Assembly: GCF_024498955.1 (NCBI RefSeq)
Contig: NZ_CP093311.1
Coordinates: 558,001 to 622,000, forward strand
DNA: 64,000 bases
Source: Thermomonas paludicola
Lineage (GTDB): Bacteria; Pseudomonadota; Gammaproteobacteria; Xanthomonadales; Xanthomonadaceae
Direction: 5' to 3'
Shown: piece after piece, positions 57,932 to 64,000 of the stretch
Numbering within the stretch: position 1 is the first letter of the stretch
How the letters are laid out: every line of letters begins with the position of its first letter
Program-made: the position numbers and the translations under genes
Notes under the pieces: generated by a model
Database searches by the model: none
Told to the model about the DNA's origin: nothing
The model's input: the letters and a program-made list of their open reading frames with translations, nothing else

Positions 57932-59087
57932 GGAAAATCTGAACAACACGCCCCGAATCTTCAATTCCGGGCCACAGAGCAGGTTTTTTGGCTTCGTTAC
58001 CGCGTTTATGCGCCGTTTCCGGCGCTTTTTGGCGGGTTTCCCCGCCTTACAGGCGCACTGACCCCGCCGCCGGCAGCAATTGCCGGCGCGCCATCCACAG
58101 ATTCGACAGGGCGAACAGGGTCAGCACCTGCGCGCTGTTCTTCGCAAGGCCGCGATAGCGCACCTTGACGTAGCCGAACTGCCGCTTGATCACCCGGAAC
58201 GGGTGCTCCACCTTCGCCCGCAGGCTGGCCTTGCAGTGCTCCCAGCGCTCGGCGTAGCGACGATCCCGCTGGTTCTTCATCGCGCGCAGTTTCGACGGCT
58301 TCTCCGCGATCCGGAAGCCGGCGTCCACGTGCTGCAACTCCTCGCGCTTGTCCGCGCCGGTGTAGCCGCTGTCGCCACAGATCGTGGTTTCCCTGCCGTG
58401 CAGCAGCTTGTGTACCTGGGTCACGTCGGCCACGTTCGCCGCCGTGCATTCCACGTGATGCACCAGTCCCGAGACATCGTCAACGCCGATGTGCGCCTTC
58501 ATCCCGAAGTGCCACTGGTTGCCCTTCTTCGTCTGGTGCATCTCGGGATCGCGCTCCCCCTCCCGGTTCTTTGTCGAGCTGGGCGCGGCGATGATCGTGG
58601 CATCCACGATCGTGTCGCTGCGCAGGCTCATGCCCTTGCGCTGCAGGTGCGCATTGACCCTTGCCAGCAGCTTGGCAGCCAGGCCATGTGTCTCCAGCAG
58701 GCGACGGAAGTTGAGGATCGTGGTCTCGTCGGGAATACCATCCAGCCCGCCGATCCCGGCAAAACGGCGCATCACCGGCGTGTCGTACAACGCCTCTTCC
58801 ATCGCCGGGTCGCTGAGTGCGTACCACTGTTGCAGGAAATGGATGCGCAGCATCGTGGCCGGCGCGTACGGCTGCCGGCCGGGACGCCCCAGCGTCGGAT
58901 AGTGCGGCTCGATCAGCGACAGCAGCGCCTTCCACGGCACCACCTGCTCCATCTCCGCCAAGAACACCTCCCGCCGCGTCTGCTTGCGTTGCCCAAGATC
59001 TTCGGCGTCACCAAAAGTCAGTTGCATCAGAAGTCATCCCGGGGTGATGCGCTATTGTCGCCGATGGGGGAGTTGTTCAGACCTTCC
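57932..59087 (-). mobile_element. IS5-family insertion sequence, about 1156 bp
   Basis: The ends are inverted repeats: the right end, read inward, is GGAAGGTCTGAACAAC, and the left end is GGAAAATCTGAACAAC (57932-57947), two mismatches in 16. One full-length transposase gene lies inside on the minus strand. The flanks CTAG and TTAG both fit the IS5 target YTAR but are not the same, so there is no perfect target duplication. Confidence 0.85.
58047..59027 (-). CDS. IS5-family transposase
   Basis: This 326-residue DDE transposase appears intact. The catalytic Asp is in DTIVDATIIAAPSSTKN, the second in ICGDSGYTGADKREE, and the Glu with its YREK-like helix in KVEHPFRVIKRQFGYVKVRY. The N-terminus contains the usual LLSLIEPHYPTLGRPGRQPY and RIHFLQQWYALSDPAMEEAL. 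It is one frame with no frameshift, as in the IS5 subgroup. Confidence 0.93.
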   Translation of the reverse strand: MQLTFGDAEDLGQRKQTRREVFLAEMEQVVPWKALLSLIEPHYPTLGRPGRQPYAPATMLRIHFLQQWYALSDPAMEEALYDTPVMRRFAGIGGLDGIPDETTILNFRRLLETHGLAAKLLARVNAHLQRKGMSLRSDTIVDATIIAAPSSTKNREGERDPEMHQTKKGNQWHFGMKAHIGVDDVSGLVHHVECTAANVADVTQVHKLLHGRETTICGDSGYTGADKREELQHVDAGFRIAEKPSKLRAMKNQRDRRYAERWEHCKASLRAKVEHPFRVIKRQFGYVKVRYRGLAKNSAQVLTLFALSNLWMARRQLLPAAGSVRL

Positions 59088-59125: not shown

Positions 59126-59192
59126 TGTGTGGACCGACCAGCTTTTCATAGACATCCGGACGCCATAATTGATGGCAATGACCGAGGTGTTT

Positions 59193-59474
59193 ATGGGCAA
59201 CAGCAAGCAGTACACGAATGAGTTCCGGGCGGAAGCGGTGAAGCAGGTGCTGGAGCGCGGCTTTACGGTGGTGGACGTCGCCTCCCGGATCGGGATCCCC
59301 AAGCACACGCTGTATGGCTGGGTGCAGGTGGCCAGGAAGACGGTACCGGTGTCCGGCGCGACAGCGGCGCCGAGCGACTCGGCCGAGATCCGCCGGCTGA
59401 AGGCCGAGCTGCGGCGCGTGACCGAGGAGCGCGACATCCTAAAAAAAGCCGCCGCGTACTTTGCCAAGGGGTAA
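59193..59474 (+). CDS. IS3-family transposase OrfA
   Basis: OrfA (93 residues) is the DNA-binding subunit with a helix-turn-helix (YTNEFRAEAVKQVLERGFTV, then GIPKHTLYGWVQVA) and a C-terminal leucine-zipper region (IRRLKAELRRVTEERDILKK). I start it at ATG 59193, with GAGG at 59184-59187. A run of seven A then G (59441-59448) is a programmed -1 frameshift site that would fuse it to OrfB. Confidence 0.9.
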   Translation: MGNSKQYTNEFRAEAVKQVLERGFTVVDVASRIGIPKHTLYGWVQVARKTVPVSGATAAPSDSAEIRRLKAELRRVTEERDILKKAAAYFAKG

Positions 59475-60343
59475 GGGCGAAGTACGCGTTCATACGCGCA
59501 CACATCCGCGAGTTCCGCCTGGTCGCCATGTGCCGGGTGCTGGGCGTGCACCGCAGCGGCTACTACGCTTGGCTGCGCCAGGGAGCCTGTGCCCGCGAGC
59601 GCGAGGACCAGCGTCTGCTCGGGCTGATCAGGCACCACTGGCTGGCTAGCGGTGCGGTGTACGGCTATCGCAAGATCGCGCTGGATCTGCGGGAAGCTGG
59701 CGAGCGATGCAGCCGGCATCGCGTCTGGCGGCTGATGAAGGCGGAGGGCCTGCGGGCGCAGGTGGGCTACGGCGGCAAGCCGCGCCACCGCGGCGGTCCG
59801 GTCGGTGCCGTGGCAAACGTGCTCAACCGGGACTTCTCGCCGCACGCCCCGAACAAGGTCTGGGTCACGGACATCACCTACATCCGCACCTACGAAGGCT
59901 GGCTGTTCCTGGCGGCAGTGATGGACCTGTACTCGCGCCAGATCGTCGGATGGGCGACGGCGCCGACGATGACCAGCGACCTGGTGCTGCAGGCGCTGAT
60001 GGCAGCGGCATGGCGGCGCAAGCCCGGCCCGGGCGTGATGGTCCACTCCGACCAAGGCTGCCAGTTCACCAGCAGCGACTGGCAGTCGTTCCTGAAGGCA
60101 CACCGGATGGTGCAGAGCATGAGCCGTCGCGGGAACTGCCACGACAACGCCGTGGCCGAGAGCTTCTTCAGCGTCCTGAAGAAGGAGCGGATCAAGCGGC
60201 GGATCTACCCGACGCGAGCCACTGCTGCTTCGGACGTGTTCGACTACATCGAGATGTTCTACAACCCGATCCGCCGGCATGGTTCCGCTGGCGGCATGTC
60301 ACCGGTAGAGTTCGAAAAGCGCTACGCGCAGAGCGGCGAATGA
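59441..60343 (+). CDS. IS3-family transposase OrfB, via -1 frameshift
   Basis: The OrfB frame is exactly -1 relative to OrfA and is open from the A7G slippery site at 59441. Alone it has ATG 59528. It carries HTH_21-like SGAVYGYRKIALDLREAGER and the integrase core with D in KVWVTDITYIRT, D in VMVHSDQGCQFTS and E in NCHDNAVAESFFSVLKKE. All three catalytic residues are present, so the element may still be active. Confidence 0.9.
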   Translation, partial: KKSRRVLCQGVRAKYAFIRAHIREFRLVAMCRVLGVHRSGYYAWLRQGACAREREDQRLLGLIRHHWLASGAVYGYRKIALDLREAGERCSRHRVWRLMKAEGLRAQVGYGGKPRHRGGPVGAVANVLNRDFSPHAPNKVWVTDITYIRTYEGWLFLAAVMDLYSRQIVGWATAPTMTSDLVLQALMAAAWRRKPGPGVMVHSDQGCQFTSSDWQSFLKAHRMVQSMSRRGNCHDNAVAESFFSVLKKERIKRRIYPTRATAASDVFDYIEMFYNPIRRHGSAGGMSPVEFEKRYAQSGE

Positions 60344-60377
60344 GTGTCTACGGAACTCTGGTCGGTCCACTTCACAG

Positions 60378-60437
60378 GTCTAACACCTGAGTTAAGCCGC
60401 GCCGCGAAGCGGCGTCGGCTTGAATGAATTGTTAGCG
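60378..60437 (-). repeat. attC site 1
   Basis: GTCTAAC to GTTAG, about 58 bases. The arms TTAAGCCGCGCCGC and GCGGCGTCGGCTTGAA fold around GAA. It is nearly the complement of the aadA-type attC. Confidence 0.9.
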
Positions 60438-60456
60438 CCGTGGAGGGCGCAGAACG

Positions 60457-60750
60457 ATGAGCATTGAAAAGCTGCTGGAAACGTGGGAAGCAAGGGCAAG
60501 GCGGGCGCACCCGTCCGACGCGATGCTAATTAACAAGCACATCCGCGAGTTGCGTGAAACACGGAACAACATCCTTGACGCAGCTTGCCAGTCCGTCGCA
60601 AACAGCGCGGACGCCAGCAGATACAGGTGGATTCGCTCCACTACCGCGCCGGGCTATCTACATTTTCCGAGCGGTGAAATTCAGGACGGACTTGCGCTTG
60701 ATGCACTGGACGCCGCCATCGACGCCGCGATGGCGGGCGCTAACACCTGA
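60457..60750 (+). CDS. Cassette gene, 97-residue hypothetical protein
   Basis: It starts MSIEKLLETWEARARRAHPS 22 bases after GTTAG, with GGAGGGC upstream, and stops inside the next attC (GCTAACACCTGA gives Ala-Asn-Thr-stop). The middle has DASRYRWIRSTT followed by GYLHFPSGEIQDGLALDALD, a pattern seen in small phage and cassette proteins. The family is unknown. It points against the array polarity. Confidence 0.65.
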   Translation: MSIEKLLETWEARARRAHPSDAMLINKHIRELRETRNNILDAACQSVANSADASRYRWIRSTTAPGYLHFPSGEIQDGLALDALDAAIDAAMAGANT

Positions 60751-60797
60751 ATTAAGGCGCGCCGCGAAGCGGCGTCGGCTTCAATGAATTGTTAGCC
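60738..60797 (-). repeat. attC site 2
   Basis: CGCTAAC to GTTAG, about 57 bases, with arms TTAAGGCGCGCCGC and GCGGCGTCGGCTTCAA. One arm has GG in place of the CC of site 1. Confidence 0.88.
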
Positions 60798-60822
60798 GTC
60801 AACGCACGGCATGGAGAACAGA

Positions 60823-61038
60823 ATGCAGAACAATGAACCGTTTTGGCTGGTGTGGAACCCCAAGGGACACGCACCAACGTACCAGCACGGAACGCTTGAC
60901 CAAGCGACCAGCGAAGCCGAACGACTGGCGCGAACGAATCCCGGCCAGACCTTCATTGTGCTGGAAAGCGTGGCGGCGCTGGTGGTGGACAACATTCAAC
61001 GGACTGATCTCCGGCCCCGCGATGAACTGCCTTTTTGA
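60823..61038 (+). CDS. Cassette gene, 71-residue hypothetical protein
   Basis: It reads MQNNEPFWLVWNPKGHAPTY and includes ATSEAERLARTNPGQTFIVL, a layout typical of small helical-sheet proteins of unknown role. GGAG at 60813-60816 lies six bases before ATG 60823, which I prefer to the in-frame ATG at 60811. The stop is just before attC site 3. It points against the array polarity. Confidence 0.65.
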   Translation: MQNNEPFWLVWNPKGHAPTYQHGTLDQATSEAERLARTNPGQTFIVLESVAALVVDNIQRTDLRPRDELPF

Positions 61039-61039
61039 C

Positions 61040-61130
61040 GGCTAACACCTGAGTTAACGCGCACCGCTGCGCGGAGTTGTGAGTACGACGCTGCCACGAA
61101 GCGGTGTCGCGTTGAACGAATTGTTAGACC
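61040..61130 (-). repeat. attC site 3
   Basis: GCTAAC to GTTAG, about 86 bases with a longer, partly paired terminal region. The arms TTAACGCGCACCGC and GCGGTGTCGCGTTGAA show the extra base on the right. Confidence 0.85.
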
Positions 61131-61153
61131 TCAATCGTACATGGGACGAAAAA

Positions 61154-61384
61154 ATGAAAGTTACTCACGAGTTTGAGGTGATGACAGAAGAAAAGCGACC
61201 ACAAGACCCGAGCCTGCGCGGCGATGGTTGGAGATTTGAGACGCTAGAACATGGTGGCGAGTATCCGGACTGCATGCCCCAAGCGATTCGCGCCACCGAC
61301 GCTGAGGGGCGATCTTGCATCTATCACCCTGTCACTCACGGCGGGAGGGTTGTTGATAGCAAGGGATTCCACACTGAGGTCTAA
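61154..61384 (+). CDS. Cassette gene, 76-residue hypothetical protein
   Basis: It reads MKVTHEFEVMTEEKRPQDPS and ends RVVDSKGFHTEV, with TAA supplied by the GTCTAAC box of attC site 4. The ribosome site is poor (GGGACG), and a start at 61079 in the attC is less likely. No family was recognised. It points against the array polarity. Confidence 0.55.
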   Translation: MKVTHEFEVMTEEKRPQDPSLRGDGWRFETLEHGGEYPDCMPQAIRATDAEGRSCIYHPVTHGGRVVDSKGFHTEV

Positions 61385-61487
61385 CACCTGAGTTAAGCCG
61401 TGCCACTGCACGGCCGCAAACAAGAACGAACATACCGAAAAAAATTGCGGCCGTGAAGTGGCATCGGCTTGAACGAATTGTTAGACC
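61379..61487 (-). repeat. attC site 4 (109-bp type)
   Basis: GTCTAAC to GTTAG with a long paired stem (GCACGGCCGCAA against TTGCGGCCGTG) and an AT-rich loop containing seven A. It is identical over its whole length to sites 5 and 7. Confidence 0.9.
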
Positions 61488-61747
61488 TGTGCGCTCTTGC
61501 AATGAGCCATAAAGCGAACAGGCCGGAACGCCAATTTGTACCACGAAATCAAGCGCCGTGTCAGTTGCGCGAAACCCGCTCTGGCTCTTGCTCTACAAGC
61601 GAACGCAGGCTGTAGATCTTGACCTTGATCTTGTTGCAAATTTGAAGGCTTTTGCCGTTGAAGCGAGGTCAAAAAATGTCTTGCCAGATCATGCGCTGTG
61701 CGGGTGTCAATGACATTGCAAAGAAAGCGCGGCAGGTTGCTCTTCAC
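61481..61747 (-). CDS. Possible cassette gene, 88 residues, open in only one of three copies
   Basis: A frame from GTG 61747 runs the whole cassette to TAA in attC site 4 (VKSNLPRFLCNVIDTRTAHD at the start, RPVRFMAHCKSAQV at the end). It has the array polarity and begins 10 bases after the cassette boundary. The two sister cassettes carry one-base insertions that close it early, so coding is doubtful. Confidence 0.25.
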   Translation of the reverse strand: MKSNLPRFLCNVIDTRTAHDLARHFLTSLQRQKPSNLQQDQGQDLQPAFACRARARAGFAQLTRRLISWYKLAFRPVRFMAHCKSAQV

Positions 61748-61749
61748 AG
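61485..61749 (-). repeat. Triplicated cassette body, copy A
   Basis: This 265-base body is closely similar to copies at 61856-62122 and 62828-63093. All begin (minus strand) ACCTGTGAAGAGCAAC and end GCAAGAGCGCACAGGT next to a 109-bp attC. Confidence 0.9.
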
Positions 61750-61858
61750 GTCTAACACCTGAGTTAAGCCGTGCCACTGCACGGCCGCAAACAAGAACGA
61801 ACATACCGAAAAAAATTGCGGCCGTGAAGTGGCATCGGCTTGAACGAATTGTTAGACC
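61749..61858 (-). repeat. attC site 5 (109-bp type)
   Basis: Identical to sites 4 and 7, bounded by GTCTAAC at 61750 and GTTAG at 61851. Confidence 0.9.
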
Positions 61859-62122
61859 TGTGCGCTCTTGCGGTGAACCGCGAAACGAACAGGCTGGAAA
61901 GCGAATTTGTACCACGAAATCAAGCGCCGTGTCAGCCACGTGAAGCCCGCTCTGGCTTTTGCTCTACAAGCGAATGCAGGCTGTAGATTTTGATCTTGAT
62001 CTTGTTGCAAATTTGAAGACTTCTTGCCGTTGAAGCGAGGTCAAAAAACATCTTTCCAGATCATGAGCTGTTGCGGGTTTCAATGACTTTGAAAGGAATG
62101 CGCGGCTTGTTGCTCTTCACAG
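61856..62122 (-). repeat. Triplicated cassette body, copy B
   Basis: This 267-base copy differs from copy A by scattered substitutions and two one-base insertions, one near 62072 and one near 62025. No frame of more than about 60 codons covers it without using the attC. Confidence 0.9.
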
Positions 62123-62183
62123 GTCTAACACCTGAGTTAAGCCGAGCCGCGAAGCGGCTTCGGCTTGAACGAATTGTTAGATT
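62123..62183 (-). repeat. attC site 6
   Basis: GTCTAAC to GTTAG, about 58 bases, with arms TTAAGCCGAGCCGC and GCGGCTTCGGCTTGAA. The HNH gene reads into it from the right. Confidence 0.9.
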
Positions 62184-62709
62184 GCCGCTCGCGAATTATC
62201 TTGGCAAGCTCGTCCGCCTCCGCCAGAAGCCCGAGTACCTCAGTTCTGATCTGGAGAAGCCTCTCGTACTCCGGTGAGCTGTCGGGAACCGAGTCTTGGA
62301 GGGAGAGCGTGGACAGGTACGTTGCAATACGATGCTCCGCTGCCTGATGTGTAGAAGCCGGCAATCCAAGCTCTGCAAGAAAACGGCGCCAGTCTTTGTT
62401 GCCTTTTGCCGAATTGCATGGCTTGCAGCACGGGAGCAAGTTGCCCAGTCGGTGCCCGTGCCCGCTAAAACGCGAGTCCTTGACCGTGGCAAAAACATGA
62501 TCCCACGTTTGAGCGAGGGCTCCACAGTAAGCGCAGAGGAGGTCTTGATCTGGATCTTGGCCGAGAATGGCAACGGCCTCTCTGACGCGCTGATCGTCGT
62601 AGTCGTCGCTCGGCGCGACTGCCGCAGCAAAAGCGTGATTGATCGTCGTTTTTCGCCGCGACACGATCACGTAAGGCTTGAGATGGTTCCGGACTGTCAA
62701 GTAGCGCAT
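62137..62709 (-). CDS. Cassette gene, HNH endonuclease
   Basis: This 190-residue protein has an HNH nuclease core: CAYCGALAQTWDHVFA (first Cys pair and His) and GNLLPCCKPCNSAKGNKDW (Asn and second Cys pair). It starts at ATG 62709 (MRYLTVRNHLKPYVIVSRRK), 18 bases after the cassette boundary. The last residues, SNNSFKPKPLRGSA, are encoded by attC site 6. It follows the array polarity. It could be a defence or mobile-element nuclease; no methylase partner is nearby. Confidence 0.8.
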   Translation of the reverse strand: MRYLTVRNHLKPYVIVSRRKTTINHAFAAAVAPSDDYDDQRVREAVAILGQDPDQDLLCAYCGALAQTWDHVFATVKDSRFSGHGHRLGNLLPCCKPCNSAKGNKDWRRFLAELGLPASTHQAAEHRIATYLSTLSLQDSVPDSSPEYERLLQIRTEVLGLLAEADELAKIIRERQSNNSFKPKPLRGSA

Positions 62710-62721
62710 ATGCTTGGGGCA

Positions 62722-62830
62722 ATCTAACACCTGAGTTAAGCCGTGCCACTGCACGGCCGCAAACAAGAACGAACATACCGAAAAAAATTGCGGCCGTGAA
62801 GTGGCATCGGCTTGAACGAATTGTTAGACC
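62722..62830 (-). repeat. attC site 7 (109-bp type)
   Basis: ATCTAAC at 62722 to GTTAG at 62823; identical to sites 4 and 5 apart from the outermost base. Confidence 0.9.
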
Positions 62831-63093
62831 TGTGCGCTCTTGCGGTGAACCGCGAAACGAACAGGCCGGAAAGCCAATTTGTACCACGAAACCAAGCGCC
62901 GTGTCAGCTGCGCGAAACCCGCTCTGGCTCTTGCTCTACAAGCGAACGCAGGCTGTAGATTTTGATCTTGATCTTGTTGCAATCTTGAAAGCTTCTTGCC
63001 GTTGAAGCGAGGTCAAAAAACGTCTTGCCAGATCATGCGTTGTGCGGGTGTCAATGTCTTTGCAAAGCACGCGCGGCATGTTGCTCTTCACAG
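62828..63093 (-). repeat. Triplicated cassette body, copy C
   Basis: This 266-base copy is closest to copy A but shares the one-base insertion near 62998 with copy B. A minus-strand frame from GTG gives only 50 codons or so before a stop. Confidence 0.9.
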
Positions 63094-63154
63094 GTCTAAC
63101 ACCTGAGTTAAGCCGCGCCGCGAAGCGGCGTCGGCTTGGACGAATTGTTAGGTG
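63094..63154 (-). repeat. attC site 8
   Basis: GTCTAAC to GTTAG, about 58 bases; nearly identical to site 1 (GGACGAATTGTTAG in place of GAATGAATTGTTAG). Confidence 0.9.
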
Positions 63155-63462
63155 CCACCGGCAGCGTCCCGCAAAACTTGCGCTTGACTGCGGATGGTGC
63201 CGAGAAGTGCGTGGCGCATCTCATGGTAGATAGCGTCAGCTCCACCAGGGAAACTGCGGTGTTTCCGATCGCTGTAGAACAGCACCGCAAGCGACGCGAT
63301 TTTGGAGGCTTTCCGCGCTGCGTAGTGGTCAATGCCTGCCATCGACGTTGCAAGGAACTGCAATCGATTCACAGCCACAGAGTTGGCAATAGAAAGATCA
63401 TTTTCCGACAGGACGTTTTCAATTTCGGCGGCAACGCCAAGAATCTGATCAGAGGCAGACAT
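63148..63462 (-). CDS. Cassette gene, 104-residue hypothetical protein
   Basis: It reads MSASDQILGVAAEIENVLSE and later AGIDHYAARKASKIASLAVL, probably all-helical, and ends with TAA supplied by attC site 8 (GCACCTAAC). AGGTG precedes ATG 63462. It follows the array polarity. The family is unknown. Its start codon overlaps that of the divergent gene at 63461. Confidence 0.5.
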   Translation of the reverse strand: MSASDQILGVAAEIENVLSENDLSIANSVAVNRLQFLATSMAGIDHYAARKASKIASLAVLFYSDRKHRSFPGGADAIYHEMRHALLGTIRSQAQVLRDAAGGT

Positions 63463-63694
63463 GAACACACCTATGCACCTAGGGCCATTGACCGTAAAGC
63501 GCGTGTCGCTAATTTTTGTCGCGGCGCTTCTTGGGAGTGGAACAAAGGAGGATCCGGAAAGGACGGCGTTCTTTTACTACAACGACGACGGCGAAATGAT
63601 GGCTTGCTATGACCCGATCTATGGACCGCCAGATTGCCCCAACCAGATGCAGAGGAAAACGGTTGTGGCACCTAACGATCAAGTTCAGCCGTGA
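63461..63694 (+). CDS. Cassette gene, 77-residue secreted hypothetical protein
   Basis: It has a short hydrophobic N-terminal segment (VKRVSLIFVAALLGSG) and then RTAFFYYNDDGEMMACYDPI, ending through the attC box as PNDQVQP. AGAGG lies six bases before ATG 63461; ATG 63473 is an alternative. It may be exported. It points against the array polarity and shares its cassette with the gene at 63148. Confidence 0.5.
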   Translation: MNTPMHLGPLTVKRVSLIFVAALLGSGTKEDPERTAFFYYNDDGEMMACYDPIYGPPDCPNQMQRKTVVAPNDQVQP

Positions 63695-63730
63695 CGCGAA
63701 GCGGCATCGGCTGCAACGCGTTGTTAGGTG
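63669..63730 (-). repeat. attC site 9
   Basis: CACCTAAC to GTTAG, about 57 bases; arms CAGCCGTGACGC and GCGGCATCGGCTG, more diverged than the other sites. Confidence 0.85.
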
Positions 63731-63751
63731 CCAGGACAACAGGAGAACGAG

Positions 63752-63982
63752 ATGAGTGAGTGGCAACCGATTGAAACTGCGCCGAAAGACGGCAGCGCAA
63801 TCCTCGCGGTAGTGAGGTGGATGTGGTCGGATGAGACGCTTGGGGAAGCGCAGGACGTCGTGCATTGGCATCAAGCTGGCTTTTGGGCATGCGCAACACC
63901 GATGAATTATTTGCAGGCGCTAGATGAAGGCGTGAACCCGACGCATTGGCGACCGCTGCCCGCACCGCCAGTAAGCACCTAA
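63752..63982 (+). CDS. Cassette gene, DUF551-like protein
   Basis: This 76-residue protein starts MSEWQPIETAPKDGSAILAV and has THWRPLPAPP near the end, the pattern of DUF551 proteins common in phages and cassettes. AGGAGA lies seven bases before ATG 63752, and TAA comes from the next attC box (CACCTAAC). The function is unknown. It points against the array polarity. Confidence 0.75.
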   Translation: MSEWQPIETAPKDGSAILAVVRWMWSDETLGEAQDVVHWHQAGFWACATPMNYLQALDEGVNPTHWRPLPAPPVST

Positions 63983-64000
63983 CGCCCGAATTGAGCCGGG
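63976..64000 (-). repeat. attC site 10, cut by the window edge
   Basis: CACCTAACGCCCGAATTGAG with GCCGGG at the edge is the left half of another attC. The array therefore continues beyond 64000. Confidence 0.75.

Follow-up and report, generated by a model that had tools for sequence, protein, structure and literature searches.

The window analysed here, a stretch of 64,000 nucleotides, comprises positions 558001–622000 of the one-contig, 2.72-Mb genome of a Thermomonas species (contig coordinates carry the prefix C1; bare positions are those of the window), and its right-hand end holds part of an integron array in which many cassettes carry a gene that runs against the array. The system is a sedentary chromosomal integron, a known kind, with an intact integrase gene. 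The question raised by this locus is where the reversed cassettes come from. The origin and spread of integron cassettes is a long-open question; for those of this locus we conclude, with a probability of about 0.8, that the Thermomonas integron captured reversed cassettes that had been built in phages. In this conclusion, we infer both the direction of transfer and the function.

The array contains 77 attC sites and extends over ~33 kb (C1:618378–651649), starting beside the integrase gene intI. A scan for the attC arms gave 76 of the sites, the remaining one being an atypical site of 126 nt. The ten most distal sites are in the window, from position 60378 rightward; an earlier note on this DNA had recognized nine complete sites and one partial site here, a count that holds, the tenth site being cut by the window end and extending 64 bases past it. 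Polarity was assigned with a covariance model trained on 49 attC from 49 other bacterial arrays and on no site of this genome. The ten window sites have their best score on the minus strand (56–81 bits), the 71 best matches of the model in the whole array are all on that strand (typically 60–90 bits versus 20–40 on the plus strand), and a manual count of the model output places the best match on the minus strand at all 77 sites. A 20-base pattern of the attC arm occurs 66 times in forward and never in reverse orientation in the 2.7-Mb genome, always within the array, and the same pattern read backwards, as a control for chance, has no occurrence across the genome. The model bears out the single polarity proposed in the earlier note, placing attC on the minus rather than the plus strand, and the extra base described there is indeed in the right arm as read on the plus strand. 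What had been taken for a triplicated cassette with its attC on the left is really a 24-member family without an open reading frame (ORF), in which the 108-nt attC, present in 14 copies, always stands left of the body, a sign of polarity that is independent of the covariance model. Because of the attC polarity and the left position of the 108-nt sites, the array reads from right to left, as had been proposed; the cassette bodies in the window, previously given as 0.3–0.65 kb, measure 242–539 nt.

A cassette is designated reversed when its gene is antisense to the array and starts just past its own attC, a layout that the earlier note does not mention. Sorted by reading of ORFs on both strands, the 77 cassettes comprise 30 sense, 16 reversed, 24 ORF-less, and 7 ambiguous ones; cassette 8, counted among the 30 sense cassettes, additionally holds a reversed gene, which gives 17 reversed proteins in all. 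Starts were also located by a blind rule (an ORF of at least 45 residues with a Shine-Dalgarno (SD) sequence and an ATG start, no more than 75 nt from attC), with the flanks read backwards as the control. In this array the rule found 16 reversed and 15 sense starts, compared with 0 and 2 in the control. Thirteen of the 16 reversed starts fall in the reversed cassettes read by eye, of which cassettes 3, 43, and 44 were missed; the other three are in cassette 48, which is ambiguous by reading, and in the sense cassettes 49 and 50, where they are probably due to chance, as are probably two sense starts located opposite the reversed genes of cassettes 2 and 73. A stricter whole-body rule assigned 12 cassettes as reversed, 13 as sense, and 1 as both, against 1 and 1 in the control, and in the 13 reversed genes that it found (12 of the 16 and cassette 48) the ATG is 5–27 nt from attC. 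Codon self-training and amino acid composition were tried as gene callers, but their signals were too weak and the SD and ORF rule with its reversed-sequence control was used instead. A clustering of reversed cassettes in runs was also considered and is not supported (six adjacent pairs; p 0.05 for all cassettes and 0.29 for coding ones).

Other bacterial arrays are organized differently. We screened 136 bacterial loci (80 + 56), the set of 80 extending past the host family to other phyla, and kept the 59 with a polarity lead of at least three strict sites; identical flanks were counted once. With the same blind rule, these arrays, with 872 attC, gave 192 sense and 25 reversed starts, the control giving 24 and 24, so that reversed starts in the other arrays are at noise level; the difference from the Thermomonas array is significant (Fisher 1e-6). 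Two of the 25 look real, a RelB-like antitoxin gene (L161) and a phage-like gene (L151). Seven congeners supplied a further 12 stretches, one of which lacks attC, with 37 sense and 5 reversed starts (control 0 and 4; Fisher 5e-4 versus the array studied here). The five include two phage-like genes at a contig start in the congener G183 and one ParD-like antitoxin gene, and one reversed cassette read by eye in the congener G051 escaped the blind rule. As an observation in its own right, the few antisense cassettes that are convincing in otherwise sense arrays include antitoxin-like genes (ParD-like, L242 position 14297; RelB-like, L161 position 15018; both named from sequence). Separately, the G183 contig start (G183:C29, L239 1–1633; Thermomonas) has five attC with reversed phage-type genes and may be an integron end or a prophage.

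In viral loci the orientation is the opposite. Pattern scans of IMG/VR for the attC type of this array, blind to genes, gave 27 contigs, of which 16 were counted together with two prophages. Left out of the 16 were four repeats of one phage (L176, L178, L184, and L187), L111 and L113, in which the scanner found no attC, and four fresh contigs; L115 and L116, which are one contig whose attC arrays resemble a host integron, were counted apart and had 1 sense and 0 reversed starts over 10 sites. Homology to the reversed proteins of cassettes 2 and 73 (c2 and c73), rather than the attC pattern, led to L190, L196, and L197, although L190 is the same contig as the pattern-found L177. Polarity was taken from the covariance model as the best strand at ≥20 bits, 152 matches giving 88 sites in 19 loci; three L232 sites were kept apart from the viral total of 85, and L218 and L226, being bacterial arrays or the ends of contigs, were excluded. 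The 18 viral and prophage loci, with 85 attC, have 64 reversed and 5 sense starts (control 4 and 4; Fisher 8.5e-37 versus the bacterial arrays), or 52 and 5 without the two prophages, and reversed starts are present in 16 of the 18. Phage hallmarks were checked in some of the contigs and include a tape measure protein (L191), a tail protein (L117), a DNA polymerase (L112), and NinB (L183); L190 has a Mom gene past its last attC, and in prophage L196 an integrase and an S24-type repressor flank a run of nine attC. The products of the reversed phage cassettes include N6/N4 methyltransferases (L117 and L180), a weak match to Mom (L188), and DUF5131 (L185). The nine-attC run of L196 (8206–12695; G233 prophage), with its reversed small genes, directly adjoins the phage integrase and may be a cassette-based accessory region.

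The cassettes in the window, numbered from the distal end, with genes designated by cassette (c1, c2, and so on), are as follows.

60378..60437, minus strand: attC 1 (covariance model, 78.3 bits on minus versus 26.8 on plus)
60457..60750, plus strand: reversed gene c1, 97 aa, SD and ATG 19 nt past its own attC (PHROG 4029, E=1.1e-4; SD rule)
60738..60797, minus strand: attC 2 (71.5 bits on minus)
60811..61038, plus strand: reversed gene c2, 75 aa, with phage relatives (48-protein search result including itself; prophage, viral-contig, and isolate-phage relatives)
61040..61129, minus strand: attC 3, 90 nt (56.1 bits on minus)
61154..61384, plus strand: reversed gene c3, 76 aa (by reading, near full-length ORF; missed by the SD rule; no family match)
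61379..61486, minus strand: attC 4, 108-nt type of the ORF-less family (68.9 bits on minus)
61487..61749, minus strand: ORF-less body, family of 24
61750..61857, minus strand: attC 5, 108 nt (68.9 bits on minus)
61858..62122, minus strand: ORF-less body, family of 24
62123..62182, minus strand: attC 6 (81 bits on minus)
62137..62709, minus strand: sense gene c6, HNH endonuclease, likely ATG at 62709, frame open to 62766 (PHROG 2118, E=4.7e-11; Pfam HNH 0.006, below cut-off)
62722..62829, minus strand: attC 7, 108 nt (65.7 bits on minus)
62830..63093, minus strand: ORF-less body, family of 24
63094..63153, minus strand: attC 8 (74 bits on minus)
63148..63468, minus strand: sense gene c8a (ORF; no family match at E≤0.001)
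63461..63694, plus strand: reversed gene c8b, sharing the cassette with c8a (PHROG 14088, E=8.2e-9)
63670..63729, minus strand: attC 9, of a subtype also on reversed cassettes 14 and 52 (60.7 bits on minus)
63752..63982, plus strand: reversed gene c9, 76 aa (PHROG 7704, E=2.6e-5; SD rule)
63977..64000, minus strand: attC 10, cut by the window end; full site C1:621977–622064 (58.7 bits on minus)

Links between the reversed genes of this array and phages were looked for in their products and in their attC. PHROG matches at E≤1e-3 were found for 10 of the 17 reversed proteins and for 5 of the 23 sense proteins tested (p=0.024), 7 of the 30 sense cassettes being outside the scan. One reversed protein matches PHROG 12600 (6.5e-65), and the named families are phage-type: DUF4326 (1.3e-21), Lar (4e-12), and a Dam-type methyltransferase (below the Pfam cut-off). 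With tblastn, the 17 reversed proteins had relatives for c2 alone, all in viral loci, and the four c2 relatives with polar attC nearby (in two distinct contigs) are all reversed; seven of 28 sense proteins had relatives, all in bacterial loci, which are sense in 7 of 7 cases with attC nearby, four having no attC nearby. In the 296 genomes of the host family, the c2 family occurs in one other genome, within prophage L196, where the relative is 73% identical, has the same reversed layout, and is ~106 kb from the intI of that genome; a viral-contig relative is 72% identical, again with the reversed layout. More distant relatives (32–53%) are present in 14 phage records, including phages of Bordetella, Pseudomonas, and Microcystis, with no attC within 3 kb in the two isolate phages checked. 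In addition, viral contig L114 encodes a protein with 95.6% identity to that of a reversed cassette in Thermomonas G183.

Comparison with 85 viral and 882 bacterial sites places the attC of reversed cassettes closer to the viral ones than those of sense cassettes (Mann-Whitney 5e-4, and 0.009 when restricted to sites of ≤95 nt from this array). Sites of >95 nt account for 201 of the 882 bacterial attC, 10 of 30 on sense cassettes here, and 0 of 16 on reversed ones; a complete lack of such sites in phages would be inexact, 1 of 85 being 103 nt. A length of 80–95 nt, found here for the attC of 6 of the 16 reversed cassettes and of none of the 30 sense ones, was rejected as a general mark of reversed cassettes, since two congeners carry 59 and 40 such sites in sense arrays and only 17 of the 85 viral attC fall in this range. 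In these congeners, G237 (its C1:762767 onward) and G249 (its C1:2178463 onward), the copies are of an 88–91-nt attC type, a strong array-specific bias. The CTGCGCTGCGGC attC subtype accompanies reversed genes in four places that were read (cassettes 11 and 75 of this array, G051, and G183).

Several observations weigh against a phage origin of the reversed cassettes. One viral contig, L110, is sense, another, L179, is without any start, and the four fresh contigs have between them one informative start, which is reversed. The IMG/VR contigs are themselves predictions, and in blastn searches of 50,697 isolate phage records three attC queries matched only a P1 record and, partially, a Salmonella record, with no match to the prophage attC. 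The PHROG contrast between reversed and sense proteins is modest. The 64 viral reversed proteins include relatives of only 2 of the 17 reversed genes, and one of the two matches is weak, so that a donor phage can be indicated for few cassettes. Similarly, a viral site is closer than any bacterial one to the attC of just 5 of 16 reversed cassettes (and 2 of 30 sense ones), and the attC evidence is therefore a shift, not an identity. Finally, the TJE1 and PH101 cassettes in the accessible part of Qi 2023 (PMC9892861) run in one direction as is typical of bacteria, in contrast to the 64 of 69 starts that are reversed here.

The capture of phage-built cassettes could be explained as follows. The substrate of IntI is the bottom strand of attC in folded form, and this sets the orientation of the cassette (PMC11023631). 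Because the integrase acts on one attC strand, the orientation of a gene relative to its attC should be kept on transfer and would mark its origin. In the phage, a founder attC may have lain against the phage operon, so that only cassettes inserted reversed would be transcribed; since only reversed genes at that attC would be transcribed with the operon, the reversed layout would persist in phages. More speculatively, transcription of the phage might free the bottom strand of attC and so help it to fold. IntI would then have acquired the reversed cassettes from attC arrays carried by phages, whether in the course of an infection or out of prophages, and inserted them as circles at attI, the array growing leftward; its oldest end, in the window, was severed by insertion of an IS3 element. 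Once part of the array, the reversed genes would oppose the promoter Pc and would either need a promoter pointing at attI or be in silent storage.

The alternative that survives best, although we consider it unlikely, is the opposite gene flow, in which reversed cassettes arose in bacterial integrons and were then acquired by phages. Phages are reported to contain fragments of host chromosomal integrons (Qi 2023, PMC9892861), and the present data would allow either direction of transfer; against this, the reversed build is seldom seen in bacterial arrays but is almost constant in the phage loci, and genes of the c2 family occur in isolate phages, two of which were checked and have no attC within 3 kb. 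Less probable still is that the reversed genes are ordinary bacterial cassettes with their own promoter, in the style of toxin-antitoxin genes or symE/sRNA-Xcc1, and unrelated to phages. Such exceptions exist, as in the RelB-like and ParD-like antitoxin genes and symE/sRNA-Xcc1 in Xanthomonas (PMC12444791), and for 7 of the 17 reversed proteins the PHROG search gave nothing at E≤1e-3; but none of the 17 matches a toxin-antitoxin family in Pfam or PHROGs, the named families are phage-type, other arrays contain almost no reversed cassettes, and an ATG 5–27 nt from attC in 13 genes leaves no room for a promoter between attC and gene. A flip of cassettes within the array, by inversion or by insertion via the top attC strand, which IntI1 can use at a lower rate (Qi 2023, PMC9892861), is highly improbable and already contradicted, as an attC would turn along with its gene, yet every one of the 77 sites scores best on the same strand. 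That the reversed ORFs are chance frames is equally improbable: the genes of cassettes are small and have an atypical composition, codon and amino acid scores gave weak signals, and 2 or 3 of the 16 rule-found starts are probably chance, but the control gave 0 against 16, and the matches to DUF4326, Lar, and PHROG 12600 and the 48 proteins of the c2 family speak for genes.

The capture from phages may be part of a wider exchange. It is possible, at somewhat less than even odds, that Lysobacteraceae phages keep their own pool of backward cassettes, in which attC is on the 5' side of the gene, that this pool is rich in counter-defence genes (DNA methyltransferases, Mom, and Lar) and is exchanged via host integrases, and that chromosomal integrons serve as shared phage gene banks in which orientation is a tag of phage or bacterial origin. 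If phages do hold cassettes of opposite build, orientation would provide a simple sequence test of phage origin in any integron, phages would be indicated as suppliers of chromosomal cassettes, and the presence of antisense cassettes, which cannot be expressed from Pc, would be explained. The observations suggest a trade in genes between phages and bacterial integrons, with orientation showing the source of a cassette; if the wider proposal is true, phages would also employ the integrases of their hosts to shuffle counter-defence genes.

The 24 ORF-less cassettes are one family, with bodies of 263–266 nt that are 84–100% identical and two attC forms, of 108 nt (14 copies) and 60 nt, over near-identical bodies. 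No frame is open across the copies, each of the six frames having a copy in which the longest stop-free run is 29–42 codons, and blastn found no relative of the body among the bacterial and viral loci fetched by that stage. A sense promoter-like site is predicted (consensus CTGACA, 18 nt, TACAAA) in 23 of the 24 copies, with none in antisense and 20% in shuffles; as the copies are homologous, the 23 matches are in effect one observation. No Rfam family, including sRNA-Xcc1, reaches its gathering threshold in the window, and over the array at E≤0.1 the only Rfam matches are two to miRNA on attC hairpins, which we judge to be chance. Some coding cassettes are also duplicated near-identically: the HNH cassette (62137–62709) recurs at C1:635402–635940 with 99% identity, and cassettes 39 and 47, and 22 and 34, are pairs by their translations. 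Far from the array, a 39-base attC-like match is present at C1:1418167–1418205 (L021), near ORFs that resemble Rhs-repeat proteins.

At the distal end, between hutU and the first attC, the following features are present.

58047..59027, minus strand: insertion sequence (IS) transposase (DDE_Tnp_1 and DUF772), between hutU and the array (PF01609, 4.7e-33; PF05598, 4.5e-20)
59129..60370, plus strand: IS3-family element truncating the distal array end (26-nt inverted repeats, 85% complementary; PF01527 and PF00665), with ORFs HTH_Tnp_1 at 59169–59474 and rve at 59528–60343
60371..60377, no strand assigned: apparent seven-base remnant of an ORF-less cassette beside the IS3 element, its letters equal to the end of the 265-nt bodies before the neighbouring attC (weak, seven bases only)

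The IS3 element may have landed in an ORF-less cassette, because the seven bases before attC 1 match the end of one. That the IS-rich region near hutU is the distal end, as the earlier note supposed, agrees with the cut made in the array by this element.

The prediction that attI and intI would be located right of position 64000 is also supported. An intI of 344 aa without internal stops (C1:652228–653259; TIGR02249, 477 bits with a cut-off of 265) is 30.2 kb right of the window and divergent from the array; it is the sole integron integrase in the genome above the curated TIGR02249 cut-off, and none was found left of hutU. The core of an attI is expected to read GTTRRRY; an attI-like core, GTTAGGT in the minus-strand reading, was identified by eye beside intI at ~C1:652083–652092. 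Both intI and nfi (endonuclease V, PF04493) were located in 14 genomes of the genus; they are ≤2 kb apart in 12 of these and on separate contigs in the other two (G225 and G167). The distance between hutU and intI is 0.14–1.7 Mb, in linear coordinates, in four one-contig congeners (G237, G249, G150, and G212). The conserved anchor of the platform is therefore nfi, not hutU, which is only the distal neighbour in the present genome; the locus does differ from the ilvD locus of Xanthomonas, as had been proposed, but hutU does not define it.

Phage attC clusters (Qi 2023, PMC9892861) and single cassettes of opposite orientation (Colombi 2025, PMC12444791) are known already, while a literature search that covered few subscription papers found no report of phage cassettes reversed as a class or of a chromosomal integron with a large reversed fraction. 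The ORF-less family fits the promoter-bearing gene-less cassettes of Vibrionaceae, in that both are ORF-less cassettes in a large array; there sense promoter activity is described (PMC11014356), whereas here the promoter is predicted only and a single family accounts for 24 of 77 cassettes. The Vibrio cholerae superintegron, as described in the portion available (PMC11023631), likewise has an IS3 element in its most distal cassette; here only the distal IS3-family element was seen, no search for a second copy in the array having been made. The viral loci resemble the phage-borne CALINs (clusters of attC sites lacking integron integrases) in their integrase-less attC clusters and their DNA methyltransferase genes, and phage attC recombine with attI1 (Qi 2023, PMC9892861). 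In MW202573, one of the phages of that study, all three sites at ≥20 bits are on the minus strand, beside plus-strand genes. The Thermomonas integron can also be compared with its sedentary chromosomal counterparts in Xanthomonas (Colombi 2025, PMC12444791), which share the IntI platform, the Xanthomonadales-type attC, a recurring "empty" cassette, and mostly uncharacterized genes. In the accessible part of that study, however, the platform is beside ilvD rather than nfi, the reported maximum is 33 cassettes as compared with 77 here, and symE/sRNA-Xcc1 is singled out as opposite to Pc, whereas the Thermomonas array has 16 reversed cassettes.

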